Source: Thuidium tamariscinum (Eukaryota > Streptophyta > Bryopsida > Hypnales > Thuidiaceae). Taken from it: 64,000 bases of DNA. The stretch covers positions 23,773,067 through 23,837,066 of the forward strand of contig OX344758.2 of NCBI GenBank assembly GCA_947034885.2, written 5' to 3'. Shown here piece after piece: positions 22,527-43,846 of this stretch. The position numbers and the translations under genes are program-made. The notes below the pieces were generated by a model that saw nothing but the letters and a program-made list of their open reading frames with translations, was not told the origin of the DNA and did not search any database. Position 1 is the first letter of the stretch, and each line of letters begins with the position of its first letter.

Positions 22527-22537
22527 CAGGGTTGACG
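22527..22537 (+). repeat. Left terminal inverted repeat of the hAT element
   Basis: CAGGGTTGACG. It matches the reverse complement of the right end (CAGGGATGACG) at 10 of 11 positions and resembles the CAGGG/TAGGG termini of Ac-like hAT elements. GGACGTCC palindromes follow at about 22,574-22,592, as they do just inside the right end. Confidence 0.93.
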
Positions 22538-22559
22538 AATCGCTACGTCTAGGGCAAAA

Positions 22560-22750
22560 TTATGTCCAAAATCTGGACGTCCGGACGTCCGGACTTAGTG
22601 GACGTAGTGGACGCTGTCCTCGGCGACCGGCGGACGGAGCAGCGGACGGAACTGCAGACGGCCAGACGGGCGGTCGGCCAGCGGACGGGCGGACCCAACT
22701 ACGGACGGGCAGACGGGACTGCGGATGGGAGGACGGATGAGCGGGCGGTC
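22560..22750 (+). promoter_or_regulatory. Left subterminal GC-rich island (island A)
   Basis: GC-rich block of degenerate CGGACGG/GCGGACGG words that starts with the palindromic GGACGTCCGGACGTCC. It lies 35-220 bp inside the left end. In hAT elements subterminal repeats are transposase-binding sites, and that is the likely role here. Unlike the other four islands it is not followed by a GTATAAG box and ORF. Short open frames across it are composition artefacts. Confidence 0.75.
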
Positions 22751-23819
22751 GATTGCATTTCTGGATTTAGGGTTTTCAAATAACATGTAAAGTAGATGGC
22801 TTGAAAAGCGACCCTTTAAGGGCTCTTTGGTTTTTTTGATGGGTTGAAGATGCCCAAAAATATTTCCCCTTATTTTTCGTTTAAAGAACCATTGATGCGA
22901 AATCTAAACCAAATGGTTTCATATTTTTCCAAGCATTTATAAATTACTTATGTTTTCAAAGAATTCTAGCATAGGTATGTATTTGTGATTCTAGGTCTTG
23001 CAAGTTGCAAAACCCACACATGCGCAGTCTGGAAAAAACCATGGCTTGACCAAAAACAAGCAATGAAGCGCTGAAAAAGTAATACTTCAGGTTCCTAAAT
23101 GTGACCTTTACTAAAATTAAGCCCTAAAACCAACATTGTCTTCATGTACTTTTAAATCCAATTGAAAGTGCTATAACTTTTGTATCCGATTTCCAAATTC
23201 AACAAAACTTGTTGGAAAATTTGCACACTCTCTTCTAGTTTGTGTGATAAAATTTTTAGAACAATCTCAATTATACACTTATACTGATTTCTTGGGAGTC
23301 AATCAAAGTTCACAAATTCAATTTGAATTCACCAAACTGCATTGAGATGGCTTCAACTTCAGGGGCCTGTATCTTTTTCATCAAATGTTAGTTTTCAAAA
23401 AAATGTGTTGGGTTATGTTTTCCTTGAAGCCTAATTATTGTCGTAAAATTTTATGGATTTATTTATTTTTGAAACAAATGGAATTCCATTCCAATTTCCA
23501 AAGGTCGATTTTTGAGCTTTTTATAGGGATGCTTCTAAATAGACTATCGCAATTCGAGCCACCTACCTTATCATGTTTCGTCCATGTGACCATATCCACG
23601 AACCAAACATTGTCACAATTTAATTTTTGTTCATTATTTTTGAATACCATGAAACCAAAAAATCAAAAAACAATAAATCATAGTGACGTTTCCAACATGC
23701 GCATGAAAACTTATATTACTTTCAAAGGTTCAAACAAACCATTTCCATTACAACTTACAAGCTCCATGTTACCATGTACCATGAATATCTAAACACCTAA
23801 GTGTACATTCCTTTAATTT
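22751..23819. other. Non-coding spacer between left end and transposase tail
   Basis: AT-rich DNA of about 1.07 kb downstream of the minus-strand transposase unit, probably including its 3' untranslated region. Open frames here are short and unconserved to my eye. I did not find the AT-rich 3' module that follows the three cargo genes. Confidence 0.5.
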
Positions 23820-25097
23820 CTAAGGCTTGTAATCAACGTCTCCTCTCACCTCAGCTCCACTACTATGACCTCTTGAATCCCATTCCGAGTCTTCTTCATC
23901 ACTTGTGCTTTCCATACTATCGGATGAAGACTGTAGAGCTCGCTCTTTTCTTCCGGATATTTGCTTTGATGCAAGCGATCTCTTGCGTCTACCCTTCTTT
24001 TGCTCTTTCACCATGTCTCTAACTCCTAATGTAGACTTCCCAATCCCTTTTTCGAGACCATTAACCGGTTTCACTTTGCTTTGTGAAAAAGGTTCACATA
24101 CATCAAGGGGGGTTCGACCTAGACTTTGCCGCTTCGATGGTGATCTTGCAAAGGCCTCCAGTATTCTTTTATTTTTAGCTTTCTTGGACTCTTTCATTGT
24201 TGGTTGTCTTGCTTTTGATCCGCTTGGAATGATGATCTCATTTGCGCCCAAAGAAAGTGATCGATCCGATGACTTCAGCGAACGTGGACCAAACATGGAC
24301 TCCAACGTTTCATCTTCTTCTGGATCCTTATCTCGGTAGCGTAAACTACCGAGACCACCTAAACTTGCATTGCCGCTTTTGAATAGTATGCGTGGAGGAC
24401 CGCTACGTGGGGGTTTAGTTGGATCTTGTGCGAGGGGCTTCTTGCCTTTGCCATTCTCAAATGACATGGGGCTCCCAGACTCCATCATACCTACATCTAC
24501 ATGTGTTGCTACTCCCCGTGCTTTACCTTTCTCGATACTCGCAAGACAACTTTTCTTACACGCCAATACTTCACAGAATACAACACTTGTATCACCTACA
24601 TTTTTGTCCACCTTCACTCCACTGTCTCCCAAGTCGTTCTATTTGCCAAGTTCTTCTGCTTCGACCCCTACTGGCGATGGACATTTAGAAATTGGAATCA
24701 ATTCATCTGGGGTCGAAGTCCCACCGATGTTCATCGTTGCCCCATTTCTCTCTTCCATTGCCACATTAGTGTCCCGGCTATGTGCTCGAACATTCTCACT
24801 ATTCAATACTGTAGTTCCATCCATAAATTTAGCTTTTGATGGGACACCCTCATCATAGTCGTAATTCTCCTCGTCCGCTTCAAAATTGAAGACATCCAAT
24901 GGATTGTCTTCAAAGTCTTCATCATTATGATGAGGGTCTTGGGATGGTTCATCAACCAAATTAGTCACATTGTATTCCGCATCATATTCATCATCAAATA
25001 GGGGATCTCTCTCTTCACCATCGCCATGATCTTCACCACCCTCATCCTTGACATGGACTCTTCCATATCCACATTCTCGAATTGCTCTTCGTACCAC
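23820..25097 (-). CDS. Acidic and basic C-terminal tail of the transposase unit
   Basis: Two minus-strand open segments in one frame, 25,097-24,639 and 24,638-23,820, separated by a single TAG at 24,639-24,641. The first is strongly acidic (DEGGEDHGDGEERDPLFDDE and further D/E-rich stretches). The second is Ser/Lys-rich with nuclear-localisation-like basic clusters (KKGRRKRS, KESKKAKNKR) and ends in a Ser/Asp/Glu patch. It overlaps the end of the transposase frame by 133 bp in another phase. The acidic frame continues the sense of the transposase better than that ORF's own Met-rich end, so a one-base frame shift near 25,060 or an intron is likely. No known domain was recognised. It could be a tail of the transposase or a separate small gene. 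Confidence 0.5.
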
Positions 25098-26848
25098 TTC
25101 TTCTCATCATTTTCTTGAGATGCGGAAAGGACTTTAGTATTGGTGTACACATACACCAAATCTTGTGCTCTCTGTGGCATCAACTTGTTTCGAGATTTGT
25201 TGTGAACAAATGAATAGCTACTCCAATTTCGTTCACATGAAGAGGAAGATACCGGTTGGGCCAAAATATGCTTGGCAATTGGAGCAATGAACTTCCCGCA
25301 CGCGCCTTCAAAATCCCACCAAGCATGCGCCGACAATTGTTGTTCGTCAGGGTTCAACATATTGTGGAAAGGGGGGTCCCTATGTCGAAAGGCTACAAAT
25401 TCCTTCACAACAGCGGCATACTCTTCTGTGGTACATACTTTCATTAAAACACGCTTGCATGCATCCATTGCATCTTGATCATCAGCAAGCTCTTTGTCGT
25501 GAAGAAGATAGGGATTCAACAAAGCCCCTGCATAATGTAGATCTGTCTCTACCATCGCTTGCCGTTCGTGAAAGGCTTCTTGTAGTTGGATGGCTAAATC
25601 CAAGGACAAACTAAAAGGTGCTTCGTCCAACGACAAAACGTGCTTCTGTATTTTCTTCATGATATGTAGCACCTTCCCCATACATGGCCTTTTTGCATCC
25701 AAATCGCGTAGACCATGTACCACCGGAGCCGATAAATCCTTGAAATTTTGACAACGCTGCCAAAAATGCTCGTTCAAAATGATGTCCTTCACCCTTCGGC
25801 ACACACTGCGAGCATTAGTATTCCGCCCTAATGTTTTCACGTACTGTTCCCACTGTGGGTCCGTCACCGTTTGCTGTAACTTCCCCTTCACCTTCAACAT
25901 ACGGTCCACCATGTTGTAATTCGAAGCAAACCAAGTTTTCACCGCCATCAACAACATGCAGTCCGGCGAGTACCTTCGAAATATTGCAAGAGGCATGTGC
26001 CTCTTTTTGAAGAATTTCACTACGTTACAGGCATTGCCCACGACCTCCTCAATCCACCATTCGTTGCCCCAATCTTTCAATAATAAATTCAGGGCATGGA
26101 CCACGCAACCCTGGTAAAATATATGAGGGTACTTCGGAGATATCAAGTTGTATGCGGCTTCATTCACAGGCGCATTATCTGCGGTTATTTGTACTATTTT
26201 GGAAGGACCCACTTCTTTTATGAATTTTTCCAAAATGGAGGCCAAATAGGCGGCATTCTTCTCTTTTCCTGTTGTATCCTCCGATCCTAGGAATTGCTCG
26301 CCTGCAGAAGACACGAGCATTGCATTTACCAATGGGCAATTTGCCGCCGAAGTCCACCCATCAATAGACAATGTTGCTCCAAACTTCCTGATGCTGTCTT
26401 CTGTTCGCTTGTTGATATTCACTTTAATGTCTGCCTTCGCTTGATCAAGCAACTTATGTCGTAATTCATGGTATGACGGTGGGGTATAGGGTTTATGAAA
26501 CTCAGCCGTTTTTTTCACCGCTTCTTTAAATGTTGCATTCCGTGCCACCGAAAATGGTATGTTCGCAGCATAAAAAAAATTAGCCCACACTGCATGCAAT
26601 TTCCGCCTATTCGCTTCTTCAAAGCCATCTCCTATCCGCCTCTGCACCAAAGGCCTACTAGTTGATCCTACCGCTGTGTCTCCTTCATCAGATGCTTGAG
26701 TACTTGCAAGTGCTCCAGAAGACACGCGGACAATTTCTTCTGGTATTGTACAAGAATCTTCCGGTGTAAGACGTATTGACGGTGTCAAGGGTCTCTCATT
26801 TGCTGCATCATTTACAACCGTGGCCTCCACTGTCCCGTTTCCACCCAA
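24965..26848 (-). CDS. hAT-superfamily transposase core
   Basis: A minus-strand frame of 627 codons from a non-ATG position, open back to a TGA at 26,867. It shows the plant hAT order: a region with LSIDGWTS (catalytic-domain first aspartate) and QITADNAPVN, then the Cys/His motif YQGCVVHALNLLLKD of the DUF659/RNase-H-like fold, and near the C terminus the hAT dimerisation block WWDFEGACG...LAQPVSSSSCERNWSSYSFVHNK. The length is typical for a plant hAT transposase. The BED finger ORF lies immediately upstream in the same frame behind one stop codon. It would cut and paste DNA at CAGGG-ended termini, and its own element is the one described here. The extreme C-terminal residues read as frame-shifted. 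Confidence 0.9.
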   Translation of the reverse strand: MGGNGTVEATVVNDAANERPLTPSIRLTPEDSCTIPEEIVRVSSGALASTQASDEGDTAVGSTSRPLVQRRIGDGFEEANRRKLHAVWANFFYAANIPFSVARNATFKEAVKKTAEFHKPYTPPSYHELRHKLLDQAKADIKVNINKRTEDSIRKFGATLSIDGWTSAANCPLVNAMLVSSAGEQFLGSEDTTGKEKNAAYLASILEKFIKEVGPSKIVQITADNAPVNEAAYNLISPKYPHIFYQGCVVHALNLLLKDWGNEWWIEEVVGNACNVVKFFKKRHMPLAIFRRYSPDCMLLMAVKTWFASNYNMVDRMLKVKGKLQQTVTDPQWEQYVKTLGRNTNARSVCRRVKDIILNEHFWQRCQNFKDLSAPVVHGLRDLDAKRPCMGKVLHIMKKIQKHVLSLDEAPFSLSLDLAIQLQEAFHERQAMVETDLHYAGALLNPYLLHDKELADDQDAMDACKRVLMKVCTTEEYAAVVKEFVAFRHRDPPFHNMLNPDEQQLSAHAWWDFEGACGKFIAPIAKHILAQPVSSSSCERNWSSYSFVHNKSRNKLMPQRAQDLVYVYTNTKVLSASQENDEKKWYEEQFENVDMEESMSRMRVVKIMAMVKREIPYLMMNMMRNTM

Positions 26849-26866
26849 ATTCTCGTTTTCACCTCT

Positions 26867-27085
26867 TCATGGGATTACCCCCTTGCACTGACGAAATAGC
26901 TTCTGAACTTGGGATGTGAGTCGTGGATATAGACTGATTCCTCGATCACGAGACCCCGATGCACCTTCATAACCAAGATGGCTAAACATACGGCATGTTT
27001 TTTTGGCAAACACTAAGTTGCAGGCTTTGCATTGTACTTTCCCAACTGAAGGGGCGCCATACCAAGAAGACCAATCCTTGCTCAT
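26867..27085 (-). CDS. BED-type zinc-finger N terminus of the hAT transposase
   Basis: 72 codons from ATG at 27,085: MSKDWSSWYGAPSVGKVQ, then CKAC and FSHLGYEG, a BED-like C-x2-C...H pattern near the N terminus, as in plant hAT transposases. The fourth zinc ligand is not obvious (Arg/Asp replace the usual Cys/His region). It ends at TGA 26,867-26,869 and the transposase core continues in the same frame. An intron starting at GGG|GTAATC could bypass the stop, but the acceptors within 90 bp are weak, so a nonsense mutation is equally possible. The BED finger would bind the subterminal CGGACGG/GGACGTCC sites (inference). Confidence 0.75.
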   Translation of the reverse strand: MSKDWSSWYGAPSVGKVQCKACNLVFAKKTCRMFSHLGYEGASGSRDRGISLYPRLTSQVQKLFRQCKGVIP

Positions 27086-27349: not shown

Positions 27350-27379
27350 TCCTCAGTTCTAAGGTTGCTCTTCGTGACC

Positions 27380-27732
27380 GTTGCAACGGACGGGAGACAA
27401 TCCCGATTGACAGTGCGGACGAAACAGCGGACCGAACTGCGGACGGCCCGACAGGGTACTCCGATCGGCGGACGGACCTCCAGTCGGACGCCAGCAAGGG
27501 CAGACGGGTCTAGCGGACAGCCACCACGAGGCGGACGGCCCCCGATCGGACGGCCTTCCGTAGCAGAAGAATCGTGCGGACAACGACGACTAGCGGATGG
27601 CCTAGATTGGACGGCCACCACGAGGCGGACGGCCCCCGATCGGACGGCCTTCCGTAGCAGAAGAATCGTGCGGACAACGACGACTAGCGGACGGCCTAGA
27701 TTGGACGGCCACGACGAGGCGGACGCATCCAC
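27380..27732. promoter_or_regulatory. GC island B upstream of the transposase unit
   Basis: GC-rich block of CGGACGG/GATCGGACGGCC words. It contains a 94-bp tandem repeat: 27,521-27,614 and 27,615-27,708, with a third partial copy from 27,709. It sits upstream of the GTATAAG box. Probably a promoter/enhancer derived from the element's subterminal DNA. Open frames across it on both strands are composition artefacts. Confidence 0.75.
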
Positions 27733-28099: not shown

Positions 28100-28900
28100 A
28101 TTTTGAATGAATTTGCTTGAAATTTTCACATAACTCAGATAGAAAACTTCATTAGCTTTGTGGGAATATTATTCTTTTCCAATTGGTGACCATGAGCCAT
28201 TGAGCCAAAGTTATGCCATCTTTAATATTATTTTCATGTCGTCGGGAAGAAAAAAAATCATAAGAAACTTCAGAATTAAAATTTTTTAATTTTTTTTATT
28301 GATTTTATTTTTGTCTACAAGTGAAGCTTTGATTCATTCCATTTGGATTAGTGATGTGAAAGTCATGAACAATCTTGTTTTTCGGACAATGTAAGCATGT
28401 TTTTGGAAAAAAAAAATTTAGGATTAATTTGTGAATGCAATTTCCACAATTTTCAATAAAAAGTTGTTGGACAAGGTTGGTTTTGCTTGCTAAAACAATT
28501 TCACCATTGGGATTATAGTGTTTCAATTCAATGTATGAGATATTTGCAATTCACTTTCTCTTTCAATCTTGAACCTACATCTACTTCACAATTTTCTAAA
28601 GAATAATTATAAAAAAAACTTCATTTTCTGAATTTCTTTTCCTAAGCTGTTACCCCAATTTCTCAATAGAAAAAAGTTTAAATTCAAAGTTTGTAGACTG
28701 TAGTGCAAAAAAATTACAGAAATGGAGGACCCTAAACCCTAAACCCTAAACCCTCATTTGAAGTTGCAAACTCAAGTTTAAAAAAACATTGTTTTCCAAC
28801 TTTGAATGCTCATATCTTCCTATCTATACGGTCAAACTTCATGAAATTTCCACCACATTGGACACATCTTGTGTGAAAATCTGAAAGACAAACCCTAAAA
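28100..28900 (+). repeat. AT-rich 3' module, copy 1 (after the RING unit)
   Basis: Homologous to 38,460-39,190 (inverted) and 41,080-41,650 (direct). Shared words include 'gaagctttgattcattcc', 'acaatcttgttttt', 'caccattgggattat', 'aacctacatctactt', 'actttgaatgctcatatctt' and 'cggtcaaacttcatgaaa'. It lies just beyond the 3' end of the minus-strand RING unit. Probably a shared 3' untranslated/terminator module or an old dispersed repeat; a further copy lies outside the giant element at 61.96-62.30 kb. Confidence 0.75.
28730..28754. repeat. Interstitial telomeric repeat (CCCTAAA)3CCCT
   Basis: Perfect plant-type telomeric repeats within copy 1 of the AT-rich 3' module. The other copies (near 41.5 and 38.55 kb) lack them at the matching place, so the block was added after the duplication. 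The strand orientation is opposite to the TTTAGGG block at 33.4 kb. Confidence 0.95.
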
Positions 28901-29535: not shown

Positions 29536-31791
29536 CTACGGTGTAACATGAGATGGACCCTCTCTATCCCTAAGTCTTGCACTTGTACGGCGAGTGTGAG
29601 GACCGGGGCTTCCTTCGCCAGTGGACCCTCTTGAAGCCACTGCCATGTCAACCGCACTGAATTGTCTTTTTGTTTCTGGAGAGAAGTCATCCTCATCTTC
29701 CACCCTCCGCTTATTCTTTCGCTTCTGAGGTAGATTCACTTCATGTGCCTTTAATGCTTCCAAGGCATCATCTACTGAAGATACCATCAAGTTCAGTGTT
29801 ACATTGACATCTCCAACGGAAAACCAGTGCGGGCCGGGGCCATCTCCTCCCACTAAAAATTTTCGAAAAGACATTACGGCCTCGCTCATCCTCCTGTCAA
29901 AAGCCCCTGCCACTTCCACAATTGACTGTGAGGAGTTGGAATCCCCGTCTAACTCTACAAGAGCTCGAACCTTGGCAGCTTCTTCCAACTTTGACAGGAA
30001 GAGGGCCCTCCCTATCAATGTGTGATTGTACGCCCCGTATCGCTCTTGCAACTCTTTTGTATGCTCCACATCCACCCAATTGCCATCTGGTCCTTTGTTC
30101 ACTTCCTTCTCTGGAAATCGAAAGAACTTGTGATGGTCTATGCTCCAGTGTCCACCCATGCCGCGGCAAAACAATTCGCGAGCTTCGGCATCTTCAATAC
30201 CCCTTGCTCGCAATTCCACGTGTCGATCTCTGGTCATCCACACAAAGGGATCCAGCGGCACCATTGAGTCTTCATACAACCCATGCTTGTCTTCCAATGA
30301 ATCCCACGTGAGAGGTTTTCCCCAATGCATATAATTTTGGAAGTAAAACGGGGCTTGATCAAGTGGAAGGGTCCATCGATTGTATTCATGACTAGGGGGC
30401 ATACATTCCAAGGTCCCAACCATTTCGTAGAACCTGGAACTCAAAGGAGAACGACACTCCAGACAAACCGAGCGAACGAGTGAGGCTTTGATTATGCACG
30501 TCACATGGAAAGTGTGACGACATTGGCCCATAGTTAGGGCTCCCTCGGGACCAAATGGACCTTGACAAATGCTGCATTTACCTTCCAAGATCCCTCGAGA
30601 AGTGTGAGAAGCATGCACCACTGTCTTCTCATTGTCCTTGATGTGTGGCGAAAGAGTGTTGTACGGAACCCAACCTTCTTCTACCTCCAAGGCCCAATTG
30701 ATGTGGGGTGATTCTTCTTTCTTTGTGTGGTTCAACCGCTCGAACATCGCATCCATGTCTCCCCAACACGTGATTTCTGTAGTCCCCTTCGGATGTGTTT
30801 CAAACCTCTTCCTCAAACTCATCAGTGAAGATTCTACTATTTGCTTTTGCTCATCCGATTTTCCTACCAATTTGAGAAGCCCTTTCATTGCTCGCGAAAC
30901 TACGGTTGGTTTGTCTTCTAGTTTTTGAATCCATGCCAACCATCGATCGTCTTTGCTACTCTTTGGAAGGTAGTCATCCAATCGAACAACATGCTCTAAT
31001 CGTTGCAATTCACTCTGCAAAGACGCGTTCTCTTCGGTGAGCTTATCCACTTTCTGCTTCAATTCATCAACTTCATGGCATTCTGTTTGAATGGAAGCAT
31101 CTTGAAATGAAGATGCGCGATTTTCAATGGCGACTACAGGTGTCACTTCCTGTATCTTGTTTTTCTCATTGCCACTGAAATGCTTAGCTCCATCTTTTTG
31201 CTTAGCTTTGGGAAACTCAGCTTTTTTGATTACGTCCTTCAATGTCCCAACTTCTGACTCCAAAGCTTCAATACGCTCAGTTTGCCATTTCACTGTTGCA
31301 ACCTGAAAGTGTGCCTCATTCTTGGAAACCCTCAATTGCTCTACCATTTTGTCTGAGGTTTCCTTGAATTCTTCCTGCAACGCCACGAACTTCGTATTTT
31401 CTTCCAAGAAGGCCACCAATTGGCGCTTGTCCTCGAAGCGCTCGTCCAAAAATGGAAACAAGGACTCTGTGAACTTATGAAACGTCAATGCACTTGCCAA
31501 CAATTCAGGTGACAATTTTGCAAAGTCCTGTGCCACCTCTGTAAGTTGCGGAGATACTTCAGCTACAAATCGACCTAGATTTGCCAATGTCACTTGGATT
31601 TCAGCAACACTTGCCCAACTGCGACGATTGGCTTCACCTTGGGTTGCATTGCTTGTGGTGGCCTCACTTGTCTCTTCCGACCGGTTTAGGTCAAGAAGGT
31701 GAGACCGAAACATAACTGAAGCCTCCAACAACCGTTCCAGCTCTGCGGCATTCGGCATGTTCGAAAGAGCCTCCAATTGTGATGTATTCAA
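29536..31791 (-). CDS. Coiled-coil RING-H2 protein (cargo gene)
   Basis: A minus-strand frame of 751 codons. The listed 5' edge is a TTG, the first ATG is 11 codons in (MPNAAELERLL), and the frame stays open upstream to a TAA at 31,879. The first about 290 residues are long, charged helices with coiled-coil character (for example VDKLTEENASLQSELQRLE). In the middle is a RING-H2 motif: CSIC, then QCRHTFHVTC, then CLEC (C3H2C3 spacing), followed by SPLSSRFYEMVG. The C terminus is basic (RKNKRRVEDED) and Ser/Gly-rich. RING-H2 domains usually act as E3 ubiquitin ligases; no substrate can be inferred. It may be the C-terminal part of one gene with the CKKYVKM ORF upstream, split by a stop and a frame break. 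The family was not recognised beyond the RING. Confidence 0.82.
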   Translation of the reverse strand: MNTSQLEALSNMPNAAELERLLEASVMFRSHLLDLNRSEETSEATTSNATQGEANRRSWASVAEIQVTLANLGRFVAEVSPQLTEVAQDFAKLSPELLASALTFHKFTESLFPFLDERFEDKRQLVAFLEENTKFVALQEEFKETSDKMVEQLRVSKNEAHFQVATVKWQTERIEALESEVGTLKDVIKKAEFPKAKQKDGAKHFSGNEKNKIQEVTPVVAIENRASSFQDASIQTECHEVDELKQKVDKLTEENASLQSELQRLEHVVRLDDYLPKSSKDDRWLAWIQKLEDKPTVVSRAMKGLLKLVGKSDEQKQIVESSLMSLRKRFETHPKGTTEITCWGDMDAMFERLNHTKKEESPHINWALEVEEGWVPYNTLSPHIKDNEKTVVHASHTSRGILEGKCSICQGPFGPEGALTMGQCRHTFHVTCIIKASLVRSVCLECRSPLSSRFYEMVGTLECMPPSHEYNRWTLPLDQAPFYFQNYMHWGKPLTWDSLEDKHGLYEDSMVPLDPFVWMTRDRHVELRARGIEDAEARELFCRGMGGHWSIDHHKFFRFPEKEVNKGPDGNWVDVEHTKELQERYGAYNHTLIGRALFLSKLEEAAKVRALVELDGDSNSSQSIVEVAGAFDRRMSEAVMSFRKFLVGGDGPGPHWFSVGDVNVTLNLMVSSVDDALEALKAHEVNLPQKRKNKRRVEDEDDFSPETKRQFSAVDMAVASRGSTGEGSPGPHTRRTSARLRDREGPSHVTP

Positions 31792-31878
31792 GGTGGAAAA
31801 ATGCGGGTATTGGTTGGGGATGACTTCAACATCGATGACTACTTCTTTTCCTTTTCCTTGAGATGCCTCTCCATTTTT

Positions 31879-32202
31879 TTAGGCAGTAGCTGCTTCAATT
31901 GTTGCACTCTGTACGGGGCTGGAAACGCTCGGTTTGCTCAAACATGATGGTTTGGAATGTACAAGCCCGAAGATGTCGAGAGCATTACTGTCAATCATAT
32001 CATGAATTGTAGCATTGGCCTCTGCAATTTCTCCCTCGGCTACCTCTTCCGTATCTTCACTACCTTCACATCGAGCCAATGGGGGCCCACCTTCTTTCTT
32101 CCCACTCTGTATATCTTCAAGAATGCCCTGTTCAGCCACCGTCGTAACATTTGGAGTGCATATTACATCCGTAGGAGGAGTTGCAAACACTTCTCCTTCC
32201 AC
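31879..32202 (-). CDS. Acidic linker segment between CKKYVKM ORF 1 and RING ORF
   Basis: An open segment in the same frame as the RING ORF, separated from it only by the TAA at 31,879-31,881 beside an A7 run. It overlaps the end of the CKKYVKM ORF by 40 bp in another frame; the reading sense moves from one to the other around 32,170-32,260. The composition is acidic and low in complexity (EGSEDTEEVAEGEIAEANAT). It is best explained as the linker of a formerly continuous CKKYVKM-coiled-coil-RING protein with one indel and one nonsense change, although small introns cannot be excluded. Confidence 0.45.
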   Translation of the reverse strand: MEGEVFATPPTDVICTPNVTTVAEQGILEDIQSGKKEGGPPLARCEGSEDTEEVAEGEIAEANATIHDMIDSNALDIFGLVHSKPSCLSKPSVSSPVQSATIEAATA

Positions 32203-32846: not shown

Positions 32847-32988
32847 GACTTCGAGTCCACGAGTGTCGTGAAATAAACAATCAGTTTGATCATCCAACTC
32901 TCCACCTCGTAGGAGCAACTGGCACAATGAAGCAACAGTAGAACCTCCGACAAGGTTGAACCCAATAATGGAGAGAGGAGTGAAAGAA

Positions 32989-33401: not shown

Positions 33402-33445
33402 AGGTTTAGGGTTTAGGGTTTGTAGGGTTTAGGGTTTAGGGTTTA
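33402..33445. repeat. Interstitial telomeric repeat (TTTAGGG), two short runs
   Basis: ggtttagggtttagggttt, then tgtagggtttagggtttagg on the plus strand. Plant-type telomeric repeat about 160 bp upstream of GC island C. With the CCCTAAA block at 28,730 it brackets the RING/CKKYVKM-1 unit in outward, chromosome-end-like orientation. Short telo-box motifs also occur in plant promoters, so a regulatory role is possible. Confidence 0.95.
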
Positions 33446-34695
33446 TTGTTTAGTGGCAATTTTCATATTTCATGACATTCTATTGAAAAAGAAATTTGTA
33501 TGCCAAATTTCATCATTATATAAATGATTAAAGTGAATATCCAATAATTTAGAAGAGAGACACAACGACACATTTATGAATTTGCTTTCGAATGCACTAC
33601 TTTTATATTGTCATGTACTCATGTCACTAATCAAAATAGAATGATTTGAACTTTACATGTATATATTGGGCAATTCTTGGTCTATTCTAACTAATTTTTC
33701 ATCGTTATAGGGAATCCCTTCAAGCATTCTATGAATACTCTTTTTTGTTGTTTTTTACCAAGCTAATTCTAAAATTGAGCAATAAGCAAAATAAATAAAA
33801 TTTCAAGGATTAGGTGGAACTATAGGATTTACAACATCCAATACTTTTACTACTTAGTCCACAATGTCCTCTAACTTATGTTTGACAGAAGCCATTGTTG
33901 GACACAAGGTAATTCGTAGTCATTCATGTTTGACTTCACTAGGTCTACAGTACACATGTTTAGCCACTGTTCGTACGATTGTACCCAAAGGGTCTTATAT
34001 AAATACATAATATAGAGCATACGTGAAATTTTTAGGAAATTTTACTTGCCCATATAAAGTTTTGACAAATTTGTTTCACTATGACTACTAGCACTCATGC
34101 CCCCAAGGGATGTAAAACACATTAGTTATATCCAAACAAACCTCCTAAAGTATTTGTACCCCAACCCCATGTATACCAACCCTATACACTTCAATCTTAT
34201 CTGACGCAATCATGTCTGTCTGTTTGTCAAAACCTTAATTATTGAGGCACCCTTCCCTCACCTTTTTAACCAGATTTCCTTCACCGTCCAAGCTCTTGTC
34301 TTACCTGACTCCATCCACCAAGAGCGAAAGACCCCATCTACTGTGATGTCTAGGTCTTATCTATATTACACTATCCATTTGTTCACAAATTGAAAGTCCT
34401 TTGCTCAAACATTGGATTTTGAACTGTAGATTTTTGCTTTCAAAAATTGGTATTAATGGATCAAATATCCAATAGAGCATTAATGTATGAAAAGATAATT
34501 ATATATATATGTTTTTATTTTTAGAAAAAGAGAATCTTGACAATGTTGGTATAGGTAATATACTAATATGCAAACGGAATCTAAAATTCAAAGTCTAGAA
34601 CTTTGATTTGTACATTCATCAATTCTAAAATATTTGTCCAAATAATATGGGATGATGATTTTTTTCCAATCTTCTATTTTTAAGAAGATTATAAA
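33446..34695. other. AT-rich spacer inside the giant element
   Basis: About 1.25 kb of AT-rich DNA between the telomeric block and the nested hAT remnant. No coding region, RNA gene or clear repeat was recognised. Confidence 0.5.
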
Positions 34696-35824: not shown

Positions 35825-36152
35825 CCCCGGGGCCGTCCGATCGGACGGCCACAGTGATCGGACGGCCCCAAGGACGACAACCCCGACGAGGTGAGGCGGA
35901 CGGCCCCGATCGGACGGCCTGCGCGATCGGACGGCCCCGAGGACGACGAGGCGGACGGCCATGACGAGGACGACGCGGACGGCCCTGGTCGGACGGCCAG
36001 CGCGATCGGACGGCCCCGACGAGGCGACGCGGACGACCAACGCGATCGGACGGCCCTGACGAGGCAAGGCGGACGGATCGGACGGCCTCGACGAGGTTGC
36101 GGACGGGTCGGTCCGTCCGCAAGGTATAAGATGGGCGGACGGCCCGTCCGCA
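35825..36152. promoter_or_regulatory. GC island D upstream of the kinase-like gene
   Basis: GC-rich block built from repeated GATCGGACGGCCCCGACGAGG-type units on the plus strand, the most regular of the islands. It lies immediately upstream of the GTATAAG box and the kinase ORF. Open frames through it on both strands (Arg/Pro/Ser-rich) are composition artefacts. Confidence 0.78.
36124..36130 (+). promoter_or_regulatory. GTATAAG TATA-like box of the kinase unit
   Basis: Context AAGGTATAAGATGGGCGGAC, at the 3' edge of island D and 216 bp upstream of the ATG at 36,346. The same heptamer and a similar flank occur before the RING/CKKYVKM-1 unit. Confidence 0.7.
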
Positions 36153-36345: not shown

Positions 36346-37833
36346 ATGCCGAAAGGAAAGAAGGTAGCAAAGGCAAGACCTGTAGTGCTAGACATTGAGG
36401 ACATGCCTTCGGATGATTGCAAGGCATATGTCATCCGTGTCATAGTGCAGTTTTATGAGGAGGAGAGCATTGCATCCCTTGATACCAAGTACATCCGATA
36501 CGAAGAGGAGTGCATTGAGAAGTTCAAATCGGATATGACAAAGAGGATGACGGATGCTCTCTTTGTTCCAGGATGGATTCATAAAACGGAGAAGAGGGGC
36601 TTTCAAAGTTTTCTGCAGAACAGGGTGCAAGATTCATTGTGGAATGCCAAAGTGGTATTGACAAAGTACGGGAAGGAACATCGTGTGGATGATCCCACAT
36701 TTGAAGAAGTCATTTTGAAGGCGGACTTGTTTGTACAACAATGTGCTCCGTTTACAAAGAATGCAAGGAAACGGAAGGGACAAGGATCATTGGGGTGGTG
36801 GAACACGGATGAAGGAGCTCTAGAATTGCAACGTGGGCGGCGGCATCTTGTGGCATTGCCCATTACCGCAAGGGTGATTCCACAAGACAGTACGGTCTTG
36901 AAGGGGGGCTATGCAACAATCCAGAGGGTGCGAATTGAAGGATGTGTTGAGATACCTACATCTTGGGAGTTTGCAGTGAAGGTATCGCATCAACAACGCT
37001 TGAGGCCTCAACTCGCAAAGTTGGAACACCAGAACGAGTCAATGGCAGTGCGGATTCCACATGACGGAATTATACGATTCGCAGCTGTGCATGCAACAAG
37101 TAATGAAGGGTACATGTATTGGTGGAATGGCGGAACGTTGAGGAAAATGTTGAATATGGATAGGGACTATCCAGATGACATTCACAGTCGATTGGCTTAT
37201 TCCAAGCCATCACCCGAAGAGGTGAATCGAGCATTCTTTCTAGCTCGATGGAGAAAGAAACAAACGGAGCTCGCATGGGCATTGGTGCACATTTTGCATG
37301 CGGTGCATCAAGCTGGGCATCTACACAACGATCTCTCGCCGGACAACATCATGTTTCACTTTCCGGATGATGAGTCACGTGTATATATTGGGGTTTGCGA
37401 TTGGGGCATGACTACTGTACATAGTGATCCACCCAAATCCTTGTACACTTTCACATCTGAAAGTGAGAAGAAAGAAGCTTTGCAAAGAAGATGGTGGGTG
37501 GATCCGTCTATTGTATATGTGCATAAGAAAGATGCAGATGTGGAAACGATTCCACATTTATCACGTAAATCAGAGGAGTTTGTGGTTGGTAAACTAGCTC
37601 AACAGATCAACAGGCAATGCATGTCCAAGGAGTATGCGGTGCTCCATCGTGATAACAGAGGACATACGAAGTGGAGCCACCATGAGTTAGGAATTGTGTT
37701 TCACAATTATTTGGAACTTCTGTGTTCTACAGATGTAGAGAGGGCAGTAAGTTTGACTAAAATCGTCCAACGATTTACTAGCCCAGGTTACAATTGGCCT
37801 ATCCCAGATGAACATTTCCGCCATTCATATTAG
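36346..37833 (+). CDS. Protein-kinase-like protein (cargo gene), intact
   Basis: 495 codons, uninterrupted, from ATG 36,346 (MPKGKKVAKARP); the nine bases upstream are in frame but have no ATG. The N-terminal about 150 residues are unrecognised. The kinase domain follows: a degenerate Gly loop LKGGYATIQRV, the lysine block EFAVKVSHQ, the catalytic loop HNDLSPDNIMF (HND for HRD, with Asp and Asn kept) and CDWGMTT (DWG for DFG). Lys, catalytic Asp and metal-binding Asp are all present, so it may be active. The usual APE region is not obvious. It has a GC island plus GTATAAG box upstream and the inverted AT-rich 3' module downstream. It is an eukaryotic-type kinase of divergent class; no substrate is inferred. 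Confidence 0.85.
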   Translation: MPKGKKVAKARPVVLDIEDMPSDDCKAYVIRVIVQFYEEESIASLDTKYIRYEEECIEKFKSDMTKRMTDALFVPGWIHKTEKRGFQSFLQNRVQDSLWNAKVVLTKYGKEHRVDDPTFEEVILKADLFVQQCAPFTKNARKRKGQGSLGWWNTDEGALELQRGRRHLVALPITARVIPQDSTVLKGGYATIQRVRIEGCVEIPTSWEFAVKVSHQQRLRPQLAKLEHQNESMAVRIPHDGIIRFAAVHATSNEGYMYWWNGGTLRKMLNMDRDYPDDIHSRLAYSKPSPEEVNRAFFLARWRKKQTELAWALVHILHAVHQAGHLHNDLSPDNIMFHFPDDESRVYIGVCDWGMTTVHSDPPKSLYTFTSESEKKEALQRRWWVDPSIVYVHKKDADVETIPHLSRKSEEFVVGKLAQQINRQCMSKEYAVLHRDNRGHTKWSHHELGIVFHNYLELLCSTDVERAVSLTKIVQRFTSPGYNWPIPDEHFRHSY

Positions 37834-38459
37834 TATTTTAGTGTTTTACGTAGAAGTATAGAAGTATTGAATAGATGTACCGGCAAGGAAATATATCCCT
37901 ATGTACCTCAAGTCCTGAACTATATCTTAAAAAGATGTGTGCATCACAAATTTTCCCAAATATATGTGCAATTCACTTCTATCTCACATTTGTTTTTGCA
38001 TGTTTTGGTCTTTTGGAACCTGTCATGATGAGTTGACCCTTGAAGCCTTGAAGTATTGGTTCTTTAGATTTTGATCTACTTGGAAAGTTTTGAATAATTC
38101 CATTTTGATTTGTAAGATGAACATTAGGCCCTATGGGACTTACTAATTTTTCTGGAATTTTGTGTACATCTCCCAATTAGTGCACTAGAAGATCTTAGAG
38201 TTACATGTGTCACTTCTAGTTAAAAATTTTAAAGTATGACCCATGGTTAAAGCCATATCGATAACTCTATTGCTATGTCAATTAGATTTTTAAAATGAAA
38301 TTGTACATTAATTGGGAAATCCTTCTTACCCCTAAAGGACCAAGGCCTTCTTTTTGTCAGAAACTCTCAAAATTGCCAATTCTATTGCATTCATCGAAGA
38401 AAACAAAAAAAAAAAAATTTAAGAATCTAACCGTAGGATCTTGTACTTAACTTGATTGA

Positions 38460-39190
38460 GATGAAGTGGTAAAAATTTCATGAAGTTTGACCGTATAGAT
38501 TGGAAGATATGAGCATTCAAAGTTGGAAATACAAGTTTTTTTGAATTGTGGTTTGCAATTTCAGATGACTTTCACTGGAATTTGTATTAAAAAATTACAC
38601 TGAAGACTTTGAATCTGTAATTTGTTGTGTCAAGAAATTGAGTTGAGAGTCTAAGAAAAAAATTTCACACAAAAAACACTTGATTTTCATTCTTTTGCAA
38701 TTATTAAGTAGATGTAGGTCCAAGATTGAAAGAAAAAATAAATGGTTAATAACTCTAAGATGGGATCTAAATACAATAATCCCAATGGTGAGATTGTTTT
38801 AGAAAGTAAACCTTACCCTGTCCAACAATTTGTTTTGAAAAATTGTGAAAACTGCATTTTTAAATGAATCCTATATTCCTATAAGTTATTTTTTCAAGAA
38901 ATTGTTTAGATTGACTGAAAAACAAGATTGTCCATAACTTTCTCATTATAAGTCCAAAAAGAGTGAATCAAAGCTTCACATGTAAGCAATATTATATTAT
39001 TTTAGGAAAAAAAAATTAAAAAATTAAATTCTGACTTTTTGCAAAAAATAAAATTCTGCCCGCCGAATGAACATTTGGGCTTTTTGTGGTATAACCTTTT
39101 CTCCCGGTCACCAATTGAAATAAAATTTACATTCCCATGAAGCTAATCAGTTTTCCTATCTTATGAGAAAGTTTCAAAAAGATTCATTAG
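38460..39190 (-). repeat. AT-rich 3' module, copy 2 (after the kinase gene)
   Basis: Reverse-complement homologue of 28,100-28,900. Words such as 'tttcatgaagtttgaccgta', 'agatatgagcattcaaagtt', 'aatcccaatggtgagattgt', 'acaagattgtccataact' and 'gtcaccaattgaaat' match the other copies in order. It is inverted relative to copies 1 and 3, as the kinase gene is inverted relative to those genes, so it keeps the same position relative to transcription. Confidence 0.75.
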
Positions 39191-41079
39191 AAATTGAGGT
39201 CAAACAATTATTTAAATAATTTTAATCTTCATAATAATAACATAATAGTTTTTAAAATAAATAAATAAACCTCATATGGTTAATTTTACAAAAAAGTATT
39301 GTGTTTAACAATTTGAATAAATTTAATTGTTTACTTGCTAAAAGTTACCATTACAAATAGTTCATACTTTTCTACTTCATTGTTGGGAACTTGGGAGTTG
39401 GGAATTTGGGATGTAAAAGGAATTTCCTATAGACCAAAGAACGCAACATTTGGATACTATATTATATTTTTATGTTTCAAAATAGTTTTAGTAAAATATG
39501 CTAGTCTACTTTTCAAGCTACTATTTCATATCTTATTGACTTTTCAAAGAATTTGAGCTCCTTCAAACAATTTTCAAAGAATTGTAGGAACTAGGAAGAG
39601 TAAAGTTGAATTTGGCATTTAATTGAAGTCATTTTATATTTTCACATAAATGAATTTTGTAAATTAGTAGCACATCAAATCCTCCATCTTCCTTTCAAAC
39701 ATCTAAAACCTCTTTCTATAGCCATTCTAGCGCTAGTCTGCTAGATAGTATGAAATTTCAATGAATTTTTTTCCTTGATAGTCCATCTTATACATCTTTG
39801 AATGGTCTCATTAAATTTGCACCACCTCCCAGTCTCCCACTAATTTGTAAGGTAAAGAATTTGTAGAAAAACAATGTTTTTATTTTGGAAGTAAAATAAA
39901 TAGGAAGAAAATAGAGAAACAAAAACAAAAATTTTGTTGTTTATTTTTCTATAAAGATTAGAGGTAGAGAAAAGATAAGCACGCATATTTTTAAGTTTTT
40001 AAAATTTTTTTTAATTGATTTCATTGAGCATTGAGAAAATCTAAGAGAACATGAATTAGAAATTGGGCCTTAGAATCCAGCCTAAGGGGTTTATATTAAC
40101 AAGGGCCGCATGGGAAAATTAGGGCCGGATTGAAGGCCGGATTGAAGGCAAATCCGGCCGACTTTCCATTCGGCCCCAGGCCCAATATAAACCGGCCCTT
40201 AATACCTTGTGCTGTTAGAGGTTGAATATTTTGCATGTCTTTATAAGTCAATAAAAAAAAGAATTTACACCAATCAAGAAGAATTTCGAACCGTAACAAT
40301 CGAAATTGTATTTTTGGTGAGGTATTGAAATTTTAGATTCAACATTCATTTAAAAATAATCGGAATTTTTTCTTTACTTCGACTGGATGGGTACTGTCTA
40401 TTTTTTGTGCTTTACATTATCTTCTAATTCTTCTTTGATACTAACTTCAAAACAATCGTAATGTTAATATTTTATAACACATTTGGGTTTTGTCCTAACC
40501 CGTTGGGGTTATAGGGGTTCAAAATGCTTCGACCTTTTGAACTTGTTCATTATTTGTTAAGAAAAAACAATGTGAAGATGTACTAAAGTACTAATTCTAC
40601 AGTCTCAGGAGTCCTATATATTCAAGGACTTTTGAAGGTTTGGGGTATGGAAGTGTTGAAGAAGTACACTTCAACTAAGTTTGTGGCAACAAATTCTGGG
40701 CCTTTTTTCGGTATGGGAAAATTGATCAAGTTTTTGGTAATATAATTTTATTTCAATTGTTTTTTGAGAGAAAATTTATTCCCCCTAAGGCCCAATGTAG
40801 GCAATAGAAAGAAAAACAAGCATGATTTTTAAAATTACATTTTTTTTTAATAGCAGTTTTTTCTACGTAGATAAACTTAATTTATTTTCATTGCCCACGA
40901 CGTTGTGACGGCTATGAATCTTCTTGTTTTTCAAGCAATAACAATAAACTTTTTAGAAGAAGATGCATTACATCCATTTTAATAGTTGAATAGAGAATTG
41001 CATAAGGTTTAGTTTGTTTTTTTGAAAACGGTTTCACCATTGGAATTAATGCGTTTCAATTTGATGCAAGACCTATCAC
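39191..41079. other. AT-rich spacer with a small GC-rich foldback
   Basis: Mostly AT-rich non-coding DNA. At about 40,088-40,197 a short foldback has arms 'ggtttatattaa...gggccg' and 'cggccc...aatataaacc' with internal GGCCGG words; it looks like a nested MITE. The stretch at 40,985-41,075 partly repeats the 3' module (tttcaccattggaattaatg). Confidence 0.5.
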
Positions 41080-41650
41080 CAATTTAGTTTTTGTGTCCAT
41101 TTGAAGCTTTGATTCATCCTATTTGGACTAATAATGAAAAAGTTATGGACAATCTTGTTTTTTGGACAATCTACGCATCTTCTTGAAAAACAACTTGTAG
41201 AATTCATTTTTGAATGCAATTTTAAATTTTTACCATTTTTTTTTTCTTAAAGCTTAAGTTTGTTTTGAAGAACAATCCCACCGTTCGGATTATGGTTTTT
41301 TTATTCAATATAAGGGCTATTAAGAATTCAGTTTTTTGTTCAACTTTGGACCTACTTCTACTTAACAATTTTTTTTAATGTGGAAATCAAGTGTTGGCAT
41401 TGTAAAATTTTTTTTACGAACTCTCAACTCAAATGCTTAAGATAAAAAATTTTGACCTCATGGTGTGTAGTGCAAAAAAAATCCAGAAATGGCCATCAAA
41501 GTCACCTGAAATTGCAGGGCGTAGTTGAAAAAAACTTTGTTTTCCAACTTTGAATGCTCATATCTTCCAATCCGTACGGTCAAACTTCATGAAATTTTTA
41601 CCACATGTTGTTAGAGAAGTGAAGTACAAGATCCTACGGTTAGATTCTAA
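41080..41650 (+). repeat. AT-rich 3' module, copy 3 (after CKKYVKM gene 2)
   Basis: Direct homologue of 28,300-28,880: 'tgaagctttgattcatccta', 'ggacaatcttgttttttgg', 'cacttctacttaac'-like words, 'tagtgcaaaaaaaatccaga' and 'cggtcaaacttcatgaaatt' in the same order. It lacks the telomeric block of copy 1. It lies about 350 bp downstream of the minus-strand gene's stop codon. Confidence 0.72.
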
Positions 41651-42024
41651 GAAAAAAAGTGTTTTTAGGTTTCTTGAGTGATTGCAACAGAAATGGCAGT
41701 TTTCAGTGGTTTGACAGTCAGAAAATGCCTTGGTAACTTAGGGGTTAATTTGTTTTTGGGGCAAACATAATGAACACACAAACTCACAGCTTTGGAAATA
41801 AGGAGGCAGCATAGAAGCTTCACAAAGAAAATGGGACATAATTGGATCGGAATTTACAAATAGGCATACTCAAAATTTGTATTCAAAAAATGGCGAACAT
41901 CCTCATATCGTCCTTATGCCAATCTATATCCTAAGGCAAGAATATACAAAAATCGATTGCTAATTACTATATTTCTATTTTAAAGCAACCATTGTTTCGC
42001 TACAATCTTCCAAACACTAAACCT

Positions 42025-43095
42025 TCACTCAGATTCCGAATCGGTGTCATCTTTGCGAGTTGGGCCAGTTGAACCAGATCCAAAAGTCCCGAGAAATGGT
42101 CCACCACCCCATATGTCTCCAAATCTGCTTGATGCACCTCCATGCCCATAATTTCCATAGTAAGGTCCTCCAAAAGTTGGAGGAGGAATTGAATCATCAC
42201 GCTGAGATCCCCTGTGCCGTGTATCATTATAAGAACTACTTCCAGAGAATCCAGGATAGTACTGAGAACTACCTTGGTTGGAACCATAATCATGTGTGGT
42301 TCCTTGGCTACCTTGGTAGTTGCCATAGCCACCTCGAGGGTCATTACTGTAGTGTGGATCACTTTGGCGATTCTGGGTCCCATAAACACCATGGTCATGT
42401 TGATACGATCCATGATGCCCATGTGGTCGACCACGATCCTCGAGACTTCGTTGCATTGCATCTCGCATTTCTTGCTCGTATTGGATGTTTTCGCATTCTT
42501 GTCTACGCCCAGGTATCTCTCCAAATGACACAGGCGCTGAAGCATCTTTCTCCTCCTCCTCCGACCAATCATCCTCAGCATCTGGCAATACAACTGGTGC
42601 ATATCCAAGTTGGCCTCGGTTAGACCACTCTGGCATATAATCACTTATACCAGTCCAACTCGTATAAATAATAGCATCAGTACGATGCAGTTCGTGGACA
42701 TTTTTGCCGTAAATTGTGCGCCAATCTACATCTTTGTGGAGCACAATCTCTGCCCAAACCATGGCCATGTTGGAGTAGTTCATCACATTTGGTTTGGAGT
42801 CACGTATTTCAGCTGACCGTGTAACTTCCTCATACCGGTGGACAAAGTGCTTGCTTAGGCACGTCGAAATTTGTCCCTCCCAACGACGAACTTGCTTTTC
42901 AGCACGTTCTCTTGACCACATTTTTGAGAGGTGCGTCATTTTGACGTACTTCTTGCATGTTGTGCAGTCCCAAGATTTCTTCGGCTCCTCCTCCCATCCA
43001 GGTTCTGCTACACACAAAGGGTGTGCCCAATCCTCCCAATTCATGTCTTGGGATTTGCCCTTGGAACTGGATTTTGGTTTATCGTTGCGAGGCAT
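42025..43095 (-). CDS. CKKYVKM-domain protein 2 with Gly/Ser/Tyr-rich tail (cargo), intact
   Basis: 356 codons from ATG 43,095 (MPRNDKPKSSSKGK) to a stop after DDTDSESE. The N-terminal about 150 residues hold the domain shared with CKKYVKM protein 1: WDCTTCKKYVKMTHLSKMW, KHFVHRYEEVTRS, MNYSNMAMVWAEIVLHKDVDW. A short acidic stretch (DAEDDWSEEEEKDAS) follows. The last about 150 residues are low-complexity Gly/Ser/Tyr/Gln/His (HHGSYQHDHGVYGTQNRQS, YGNYQGSQGTTHDYGSNQ), typical of disordered, condensate-forming tails. It has no RING or coiled coil, so it shares only the N-terminal domain with its paralogue. It is read inward from the element's right end; island E and a GTATAAG box lie upstream. 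The function is unknown. Confidence 0.85.
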   Translation of the reverse strand: MPRNDKPKSSSKGKSQDMNWEDWAHPLCVAEPGWEEEPKKSWDCTTCKKYVKMTHLSKMWSRERAEKQVRRWEGQISTCLSKHFVHRYEEVTRSAEIRDSKPNVMNYSNMAMVWAEIVLHKDVDWRTIYGKNVHELHRTDAIIYTSWTGISDYMPEWSNRGQLGYAPVVLPDAEDDWSEEEEKDASAPVSFGEIPGRRQECENIQYEQEMRDAMQRSLEDRGRPHGHHGSYQHDHGVYGTQNRQSDPHYSNDPRGGYGNYQGSQGTTHDYGSNQGSSQYYPGFSGSSSYNDTRHRGSQRDDSIPPPTFGGPYYGNYGHGGASSRFGDIWGGGPFLGTFGSGSTGPTRKDDTDSESE

Positions 43096-43264
43096 GGTAA
43101 TAAAATTACCCCAAAGTTCAGAATTAGGGTGATGGGAATTTCGGGGCCCGCAAAAGCAAATAATAATTAAAACTCAATACTATGAAAGTATTCAAGTTTT
43201 AATCACAACCATCTCACCAAAATGAAAGGGGCTCACAGAGCTCGAGGCACTGGATTACCCACTT

Positions 43265-43835
43265 CGGAAGGCGGACGATTGTGCTTGAATGAGCCGTCTG
43301 CGATGCTACTTATACTCGCGGACGGCGGGCGACGTCTCCATCGAGATCGGACGGCCTTCAGCGCGGACAGGAGATCGTGCGGCCAAAATTGATCGCCGGT
43401 CGGATTCGGCGGTGCGGACGGCCTGTGGACGGACTTCGGACAGCCTGACGGATTGCGAACGCTGCGTCGGCGGACTGCAGACATGCGGACGGACTTCGGA
43501 CAGCCTGACGGATTGCGGACGTTGCGTCGGCAGACTGCGGACACGCGGACGGCCTACGGACGGGCGGACAGAGTGCGGACAGACTGCGGACGGACTGCGG
43601 ACGCTCTCCGCACCATCCGCCCGTCCGCAAGGCGTCCGCAATCCGTCCGCACTCTGTCCGCCCGTCCGCAAGCCGGCGGCGTGCCCGTCCGCACTGTGTC
43701 CGTCCGAAATGCCGTCCGCGGAAGTGTCCGGTCGTCCGTCCGCTGGACGTACGTAAAAAAAATTTCAAATGTCAATGGACGTCCGAGGGTTAGCGCCTAC
43801 GTCCCGTGGACGTCCAGACGGACGTCCGGACGTCC
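43265..43835. promoter_or_regulatory. GC island E: right subterminal region and promoter
   Basis: The largest island. The inner half carries CGGACGG words on the plus strand, including a 60-bp tandem duplication at 43,427-43,486 and 43,487-43,546. The outer half carries the inverse CCGTCCG words. A 23-bp word at about 43,558-43,580 (ggacgggcggac, then agagtgcggac) has its exact reverse complement at about 43,646-43,668, so this part can fold into a hairpin. The outer edge has ggacgtccagacggacgtcc next to the right end. It probably serves both as transposase-binding subterminal DNA and as the promoter of CKKYVKM gene 2. Confidence 0.78.
43309..43315 (-). promoter_or_regulatory. GTATAAG TATA-like box of CKKYVKM gene 2
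   Basis: Minus-strand context GCGAGTATAAGTAGCATCGC, at the inner edge of island E and 214 bp upstream of the ATG at 43,095. Same heptamer as before the other three units. Confidence 0.7.
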
Positions 43836-43846
43836 CGTCATCCCTG
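43836..43846 (-). repeat. Right terminal inverted repeat of the hAT element
   Basis: CGTCATCCCTG on the plus strand, reverse complement CAGGGATGACG, matching the left end CAGGGTTGACG at 10 of 11 bases. Confidence 0.93.

Follow-up and report, generated by a model that had tools for sequence, protein, structure and literature searches.

A decayed copy of a giant four-gene hAT transposon in the genome of Thuidium tamariscinum

We analysed a 64,000-nucleotide stretch (the window) of the Thuidium tamariscinum genome (assembly GCA_947034885.2, contig OX344758.2, positions 23,773,067 to 23,837,066, forward strand). With high confidence, positions 22,527–43,846 of the window are a single decayed copy of a giant hAT transposon, a cut-and-paste element present in multiple copies. 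It is usually about 22 kb long and carries four single-frame genes. These genes encode a transposase, a RING protein, a kinase-like protein, and a protein with what we call the CKKYVKM domain. Equally firm are the conclusions that the two ends moved as one unit, that the layout recurs in two other copies, that a copy with all genes open exists, and that three of the genes have relatives listed on a contig of identical length in a distant relative.

Ends and copies of the element

The element is bounded by 11-bp terminal inverted repeats (TIRs): CAGGGTTGACG at 22,527–22,537 on the plus strand and CGTCATCCCTG at 43,836–43,846, which reads CAGGGATGACG inward on the minus strand. The two match at 10 of 11 bases. 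They are flanked by perfect 8-bp target-site duplications (TSDs), TCTATGAC, at 22,519–22,526 and 43,847–43,854. The ends and the duplication reported in the original prediction were exact in both coordinates and sequence. The TIRs begin with CAGGG, in keeping with the C/TAGGG start of hAT ends, and their length lies within the hAT range of 5–27 bp (PMC12506042; for the Ac end, PMC3260210). The 8-bp TSD, a transposase with a hAT core and a C-terminal dimerisation region, and short subterminal repeats are further hAT features of the element.

Chance pairing of the two ends was ruled out by a scan of the window with shuffled controls and by the TSDs of other copies. The scan looked for 11-bp TIRs, 300 to 30,000 bp apart and with no more than two mismatches, that lie between exact 8-bp direct repeats. 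It yielded 25 pairs in the window versus 3–15 in each of 20 Markov shuffles. Only the 22,527/43,846 pair had CAGGG on both sides, and no pair in the 20 shuffles did. The sequence CAGGGWTGACG occurred without mismatches only at the two element ends and with one mismatch nowhere in the window. The 12 matches with two mismatches correspond to the chance level (14 matches found in all, 14.5 expected). The element is inserted beside one copy of a dispersed host repeat that is partly a hairpin and occurs at 22,242–22,510, 46,285–46,652, and 61,446–61,809.

The source genome (363 Mb, 19 contigs) was searched using the first 234 bases of the element. This search, part of the test set beforehand for the prediction that the element had moved as one unit, returned 80 rows, and the best 40 of 266 candidates, the window copy included, were scored. 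These 40 rows all began at element base 1 or 2 and covered 167–234 of the 234 bases. The 20 best other places were followed: at each, 300 bases were examined at the left end and 10 kb where the right end was expected. The same left end is present in other copies, and the right TIR was found in 15 of the 20, at distances of 21,682 to 26,319 bp. Fourteen of these 15 complete copies measured 21.68–22.56 kb. With the boundary set at the first element base, 11 of the 15 had a perfect 8-bp TSD (L009, L010, L013, L015, L016, L018, L019, L021, L022, L023, and L027), and all 11 TSDs differed from one another. The automated count was eight; L016, L019, and L023, which carry a base change in the left TIR, were added. 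Ends around unrelated short elements, the pattern named as refuting the prediction, were seen in none of the 15 complete copies (20 of the 39 other places were followed). Thus, recurring ends at matching spacing with different TSDs support movement as one unit. The exceptional copy, L022 (C8:19320369), is 26.3 kb long with a perfect TSD and is about 4 kb longer between the kinase and CKKYVKM genes; the extra DNA is probably a later insertion.

Two further copies were read from end to end. Copy A (C11, 21,983 bp) has open genes for a RING protein of 1,103 residues and a kinase-like protein of 498 residues. In copy B (C2:13,395,186-13,417,703, 22,518 bp, TSD GTGGACCT), all four genes are open and encode a transposase of 1,089 residues, a RING protein of 1,105, a kinase-like protein of 495, and a CKKYVKM protein of 359. 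Gene order, orientation, five arrays of the CGGAC motif, and the terminal GGACGTCC palindromes are common to A, B, and the window copy; in B, GGACGTCC is confined to the ends. The aligned blocks of A and B are 91–97% identical to the window copy, and three non-coding units of about 600 bp are in place.

The gene content also recurred when mapped across copies, as the original prediction had proposed: A and B share genes and gene order with the window copy, and all 15 complete copies have the CKKYVKM gene. The latter is open over at least 356 residues in 11 copies, cut short in L009, L010, and L018, and frame-shifted in L023. The kinase gene, mostly its 3' end as the fetched stretches begin at 16.5 kb, was found in 10 of the 20 stretches and, from a further stretch, in copy A. 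Among the other followed copies, six have the gene expected before the fetched stretch, and L011, L025, and L028 gave no match. A RING query gave 58 scored places (the best 58 of 748 candidates, window copy included) at 91–100% identity, 32 of them stop-free over the matched part. The RING gene lies 6.9–8.1 kb inside at least 27 of the 40 left ends, the window's own included, on the expected strand; chance would produce this at a frequency of about 0.001 for each end.

These data leave almost no room for an assembly artefact joining unrelated sequences. A single assembly underlies the data, but 15 further two-ended copies lie elsewhere, 11 of them with perfect, differing TSDs.

Genes, repeat arrays, and non-coding units

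The larger open reading frames (ORFs) of the window were recognized as genes by homology or domain matches. The transposase gene occupies 23,820–27,085 on the minus strand and encodes a Cys/His N-terminus, a DUF659 region, a hAT dimerisation region, and a long tail ending in SSGAEVRGDVDYKP. Its matches to DUF659 (E = 5.7e-33) and Dimer_Tnp_hAT (E = 7.8e-9) bear out the prediction of a hAT transposase inside the element. In the window copy, the gene is broken: codon 72 is followed by a stop, the frame shifts near 25.03 kb, and a second stop lies at 24,639–24,641. Full-length relatives each consist of one uninterrupted frame, the longest of 1,123 residues, and most have a C-terminal SSGAEVKGD-x-DY. 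The catalytic D/D/E positions presumably lie in the motifs DGW, DNA, and CER. A C-x2-C...SHL block is conserved in transposase homologues; the precomputed Pfam domains of 15 homologues included no recognised BED domain, the N-terminal piece from the window being unscanned.

The RING gene (29,536–32,846, minus strand), which encodes a CKKYVKM domain, a coiled coil, and a RING domain, is also broken in the window and open in copies A and B. The RING ORF of the window matches zf-RING_11 above the cut-off (E = 5.8e-8). The four longest relatives (1,102–1,140 residues) carry the CKKYVKM domain N-terminally, and the other three listed are shorter pieces. On the minus strand of the window, the relatives align from 32,846 to about 29,550; the frame changes once, near 32.2 kb, and a single stop falls near 31.88 kb. 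Because the relatives align across both the RING ORF and the ORF at 32,163–33,029, these ORFs are one broken gene. The latter ORF had been taken for a second CKKYVKM paralogue; it instead contains the N-terminal portion of the RING gene, which the frameshift and the stop have split. Two separate CKKYVKM paralogue genes in addition to a RING gene were accordingly ruled out. As for the remaining cargo ORFs of the original prediction, the RING/coiled-coil, kinase-like, and one CKKYVKM gene were retained, but the gene total is four and the RING and transposase genes are broken in this copy.

The kinase-like gene (36,346–37,833, plus strand) is open and encodes 495 residues with the motifs AVKVS, HNDLSPDN, and CDWG. 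Its match to Pkinase (E = 2.1e-7, 31.0 bits) falls just below the cut-off of 31.7. A search against solved structures returned two CaM-kinase chains at an E of about 7e-4; the predicted structure had a mean predicted local distance difference test score (pLDDT) of 31 and was unusable.

The CKKYVKM gene (42,025–43,095, minus strand) is open and encodes 356 residues comprising a folded N-terminal domain of about 140 residues and a low-complexity tail. Conserved Cys/His residues and a highly variable tail characterize these proteins. No Pfam match above the cut-off was found for the domain in the members scanned, and its profile did not match any solved structure (best E 0.53). In a midpoint-rooted tree of the domain, for which 46 of 58 sequences were usable and a long-branch warning applied to P0055, the six RING-type domains formed one clade with 100/100 support, apart from the 40 stand-alone ones. 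This separation into a fully supported clade indicates that the CKKYVKM duplication is old. A separate branch comprises 27 CKKYVKM proteins among P0013–P0042, one of them on a 109-kb contig and some differing in their C-terminal part. The CKKYVKM domain may thus serve other elements or hosts.

The arrays at both ends and upstream of every gene share the common core GCGGACGG. They lie at the left end (22,579–22,706, 9 CGGAC sites), upstream of the transposase gene (27,387–27,724, 16 sites), upstream of the RING gene (32,993–33,238, 10 sites), upstream of the kinase gene (35,835–36,150, 19 sites), and upstream of the CKKYVKM gene, reaching into the right end (43,272–43,831, 36 sites). Overall, CGGAC/GTCCG occurs 97 times within the 21.3-kb element versus 20 times in the 42.7 kb outside it. 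The densest 350 bp hold 28 sites inside the element, 2 outside, and at most 5 in 200 Markov sequences of the element's composition. The GGACGTCC octamer occurs six times in the 64 kb, always within 80 bp of an element end: two palindromes at the left (22,575–22,590) and four at the right (43,777–43,835).

The non-coding units of about 600 bp follow three of the genes: at 28,270–28,875 (plus strand), 661 bp past the RING stop; at 38,328–39,034 (minus strand), 495 bp past the kinase stop; and at 41,082–41,745 (plus strand), 280 bp past the CKKYVKM stop. A partial copy at 40,904–41,091 lies beside the last. An Rfam scan gave no match at the gathering score. A candidate nested element of 3.1 kb (38,485–41,585), with an 8-bp repeat and 11-bp TIR, was rejected: its repeat and TIR fall inside the 600-bp units, and two other copies have these units at matching positions. 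Outside the element, a piece of roughly 135 bp at 61,968–62,103 is related to the unit (E 5e-21) and is perhaps a remnant of another element copy. Short arrays of plant-type telomere repeats (ACCCTAA, AGGGTTT units) occur inside the element at 28,729–28,754 and 33,394–33,453.

The internal CGGAC arrays resemble subterminal regions, and this resemblance, together with the three related non-coding units, could point to a composite in which smaller hAT or other elements nested inside one another and the outer ends came from a short element. Such an origin is very improbable. Specifically, no internal TIR was found with zero or one mismatch, two other copies have the same blocks, order, arrays, and units (91–97% identity over aligned blocks), and 14 of the 15 complete copies fall within about 21.7–22.6 kb. 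Based on the missing internal family TIRs and the shared layout of A and B, we rejected nesting.

Selection, age, and putative roles of the accessory genes

The ratio of nonsynonymous to synonymous substitution rates (dN/dS) was calculated between copies using NG86; the pairs are not independent, and no significance test was applied. For the kinase gene, five of six pairs gave 0.14, 0.33, 0.29, 0.26, and 0.21. The RING genes of A and B gave 0.43, as did the CKKYVKM genes of B and the window. Among 13 CKKYVKM sequences, the frame-shifted L023 included, 55 of the 59 usable pairs (78 in all) were below 1, with a median of 0.57. The transposase genes of A and B gave 0.57 over 896 codons. These values indicate that the accessory genes were kept about as strictly as the transposase, and the kinase more so. 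Neutral decay after insertion would raise the ratios.

Relatives outside the genome point to an old association. For the transposase P0060 (63% identity), the RING protein P0052 (51%), and the CKKYVKM protein P0004 (53%), the contig listed is in each case 17,649 bp long. Matching them by length, we take this to be one contig because three equal sizes are very unlikely to arise by chance. The apparent occurrence of the three genes together in a distant relative, at 51–63% identity, thus indicates that the trio is old. No relative was confirmed in viral contigs or in prokaryote genome contigs.

These data bear on whether the accessory genes are passengers without a role in transposition, either host genes captured by chance in the manner of Pack-hAT or Ds-l4 elements or Starship-like cargo of benefit to the host. 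Capture of gene fragments by hAT elements is documented (PMC8903248, PMC3260210), and RING and kinase domains are common host types. We nevertheless consider passengers unlikely. Gene content and order agree between the two end-to-end copies, and the CKKYVKM gene keeps its position in all 15 complete copies. The dN/dS values are mostly well below 1 and, except for one close kinase pair, not above that of the transposase. Moreover, three of the genes are apparently together at 51–63% identity in a distant relative, and every gene has the element's own repeat array.

Instead, we infer that the element belongs to a lineage of giant, autonomous hATs in which the accessory genes work for the element itself, probably via the repeat arrays. 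In the proposed mechanism, the transposase would bind the subterminal repeats through its N-terminal Cys/His region and cut at the TIRs. The GGACGTCC palindromes would mark the true ends, by analogy with the palindromic subterminal repeats of Hermes. The GCGGACGG arrays preceding each gene may in addition be bound by the CKKYVKM proteins, the transposase, or both, such that one protein–DNA code would serve transposition as well as the coordinated expression of the element or its protection from silencing. Acting on host or transposase proteins, the RING and kinase proteins could favour movement. Taken to its full extent, this scheme describes a self-regulating four-gene hAT in which DNA-binding proteins with zinc domains, a ubiquitin ligase of the RING type, and a kinase counter silencing or tune transposition, with genes and ends wired to GCGGACGG in a virus-like programme. 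We put this forward tentatively, at somewhat less than an even chance.

A related and slightly less probable possibility is that the accessory proteins are an anti-silencing or regulatory kit of the VANC type, in which a sequence-specific protein binds the motif arrays, causes hypomethylation, and keeps all genes on. VANDAL/Hiun elements are MULEs (Mutator-like elements), a superfamily different from hAT, and we know of no counterpart of the RING and kinase genes in them. Like the present element, they are DNA transposons with accessory genes and dense tandem arrays of short motifs in non-coding parts, which the VANC proteins target (PMC5735166). As for VANC motifs, the arrays here are dense, tandem, non-coding and, within the window, confined to the element, and the CKKYVKM proteins combine conserved Cys/His residues with a highly variable tail. 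On the other hand, the arrays may serve only the transposase, and the comparison with VANC covered array layout and general protein features.

Several observations weigh against a giant unit with element-serving genes. Among the complete copies, the flanks of L012 agree at seven of eight positions, and L020, L024, and L026 (3 of 15) have unlike flanks. No right end was found in the fetched 10 kb of 5 of the 20 followed copies (L011, L014, L017, L025, and L028). In L014, the kinase gene lies at 21.5 kb, which makes this copy longer than the usual ones. L025 and L026 both lie on chromosome C3, their left ends about 54 kb apart, and the right flank of L026 (GTTATACA) is identical to the left flank of L025, which suggests that two opposite copies exchanged halves by inversion. 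Copies A and B are the two read end to end, and in copy A the transposase is N-terminally cut (896 residues from an internal ATG) and the CKKYVKM gene is broken. A search within the window for an empty site with joined flanks found none, the left flank itself being part of the dispersed repeat. With respect to selection, the kinase pair of the window and L014 gave a dN/dS of 1.11, at a dS of 0.019 (a close pair), and 4 of the 59 usable CKKYVKM pairs were not below 1. Among the matches listed, 10 distinct contigs were at least 12 kb long; one had all three genes and nine had one. The single-gene contigs comprise those of CKKYVKM relatives (P0026, from a different branch, and P0049 and P0050, matching 15% of the query), that of the hAT transposase P0072, only 21% identical, and five with a close relative whose partner was not found (P0056, P0064, P0069, P0070, and P0071). 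The transposase, RING, and CKKYVKM proteins served as queries outside the genome, and the kinase was looked for only in stretches of the source genome. Finally, a fold search with the CKKYVKM model, which was confident only over residues ~10–155, gave no match; DNA binding by this domain is a guess from its conserved Cys/His residues. The binding of the arrays and the roles of the RING, kinase, and CKKYVKM proteins are likewise putative, deduced from sequence.

The recurrence of a 22-kb hAT at independent sites, each time with the same accessory genes, means that members of this superfamily are able to mobilise far larger loads and to maintain additional genes by purifying selection. The element offers a direct way to ask what benefit a kinase and a RING protein bring to a cut-and-paste transposon, and whether VANC-type anti-silencing has a second, independent origin in a different superfamily.

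Relation to known transposons and other features of the window

hAT elements are usually small, one-gene transposons. Maize Ac is 4.6 kb long and has one transcript, which encodes an 807-residue transposase; the AAACGG repeats bound by this protein lie in the terminal 200 bp on either side (PMC3260210). It resembles the window element in its 8-bp TSD, 11-bp TIRs, short subterminal repeats, and hAT transposase, and its 5' end, C/TAGGGATGAAA, is nearly the same sequence as CAGGGATGACG (PMC3260210). Unlike Ac, the present element is about 22 kb long in its usual form, with four genes and a 1,089-residue transposase with a long tail. In Hermes and Tol2, a BED finger reads the subterminal repeats, and a palindromic repeat lies beside the TIR, as it does here; in Hermes, the BED fingers bind these palindromes (PMC10368747). 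By contrast, the motif here is GGACGTCC, and arrays also lie upstream of every internal gene.

Among other large transposons, En/Spm and the 20.5-kb soybean CACTA element Tgmt* are plant DNA transposons with subterminal arrays and a second DNA-binding function, Tgmt* being similar in size to the present element (PMC2613891). They differ in having a CACTA transposase, a 3-bp TSD, and one complex gene. The 14-kb fungal ToxhAT/ToxTA was formerly classed as a cargo-carrying hAT. It is the sole hAT-classed transposon with a working cargo gene that we found in the literature, and it has been reassigned to Tc1/mariner on the basis of a TA duplication and 74-bp TIRs (PMC12506042). Pack-hAT elements are non-autonomous and contain captured fragments without a transposase, whereas a transposase is present here and open in another copy.

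KDZ elements are another large, multi-gene type of transposon, and the cargo of Starships varies between elements. KDZ elements appear in one table row of PMC12477816. The original prediction had compared the element with Starships. The comparison holds in that both are large eukaryotic transposons with genes beyond the transposase, but the accessory genes here behave as a constant part and not as variable cargo: the same set is present in the two end-to-end copies, and the CKKYVKM gene in 15 of 15. The captain of Starships is a tyrosine recombinase (PMC12506042, PMC12134995), unlike the hAT transposase, TIRs, 8-bp TSD, and recurring gene set found here. In Starships it carries DUF3435 and sits at the 5' edge; the six long ORFs scanned here gave no such domain match at E ≤ 0.1. 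Among the matches listed from the open-licence literature, no title or abstract opening named a giant multi-gene hAT. The element is a hAT by its settled features; its size and gene content were not found described among these matches.

Elsewhere in the window, an ORF with a methyltransferase domain lies at 8,230–8,688, and TTTAGGG-type repeats are present; both are consistent with a plant host. Two 114-bp tandem copies, 99% alike, occupy 15,976–16,207. An imperfect tandem repeat with a period of about 136 bp extends over 63,112–63,928 and, judged by eye, may code for RGRPPK-like AT-hook repeats.

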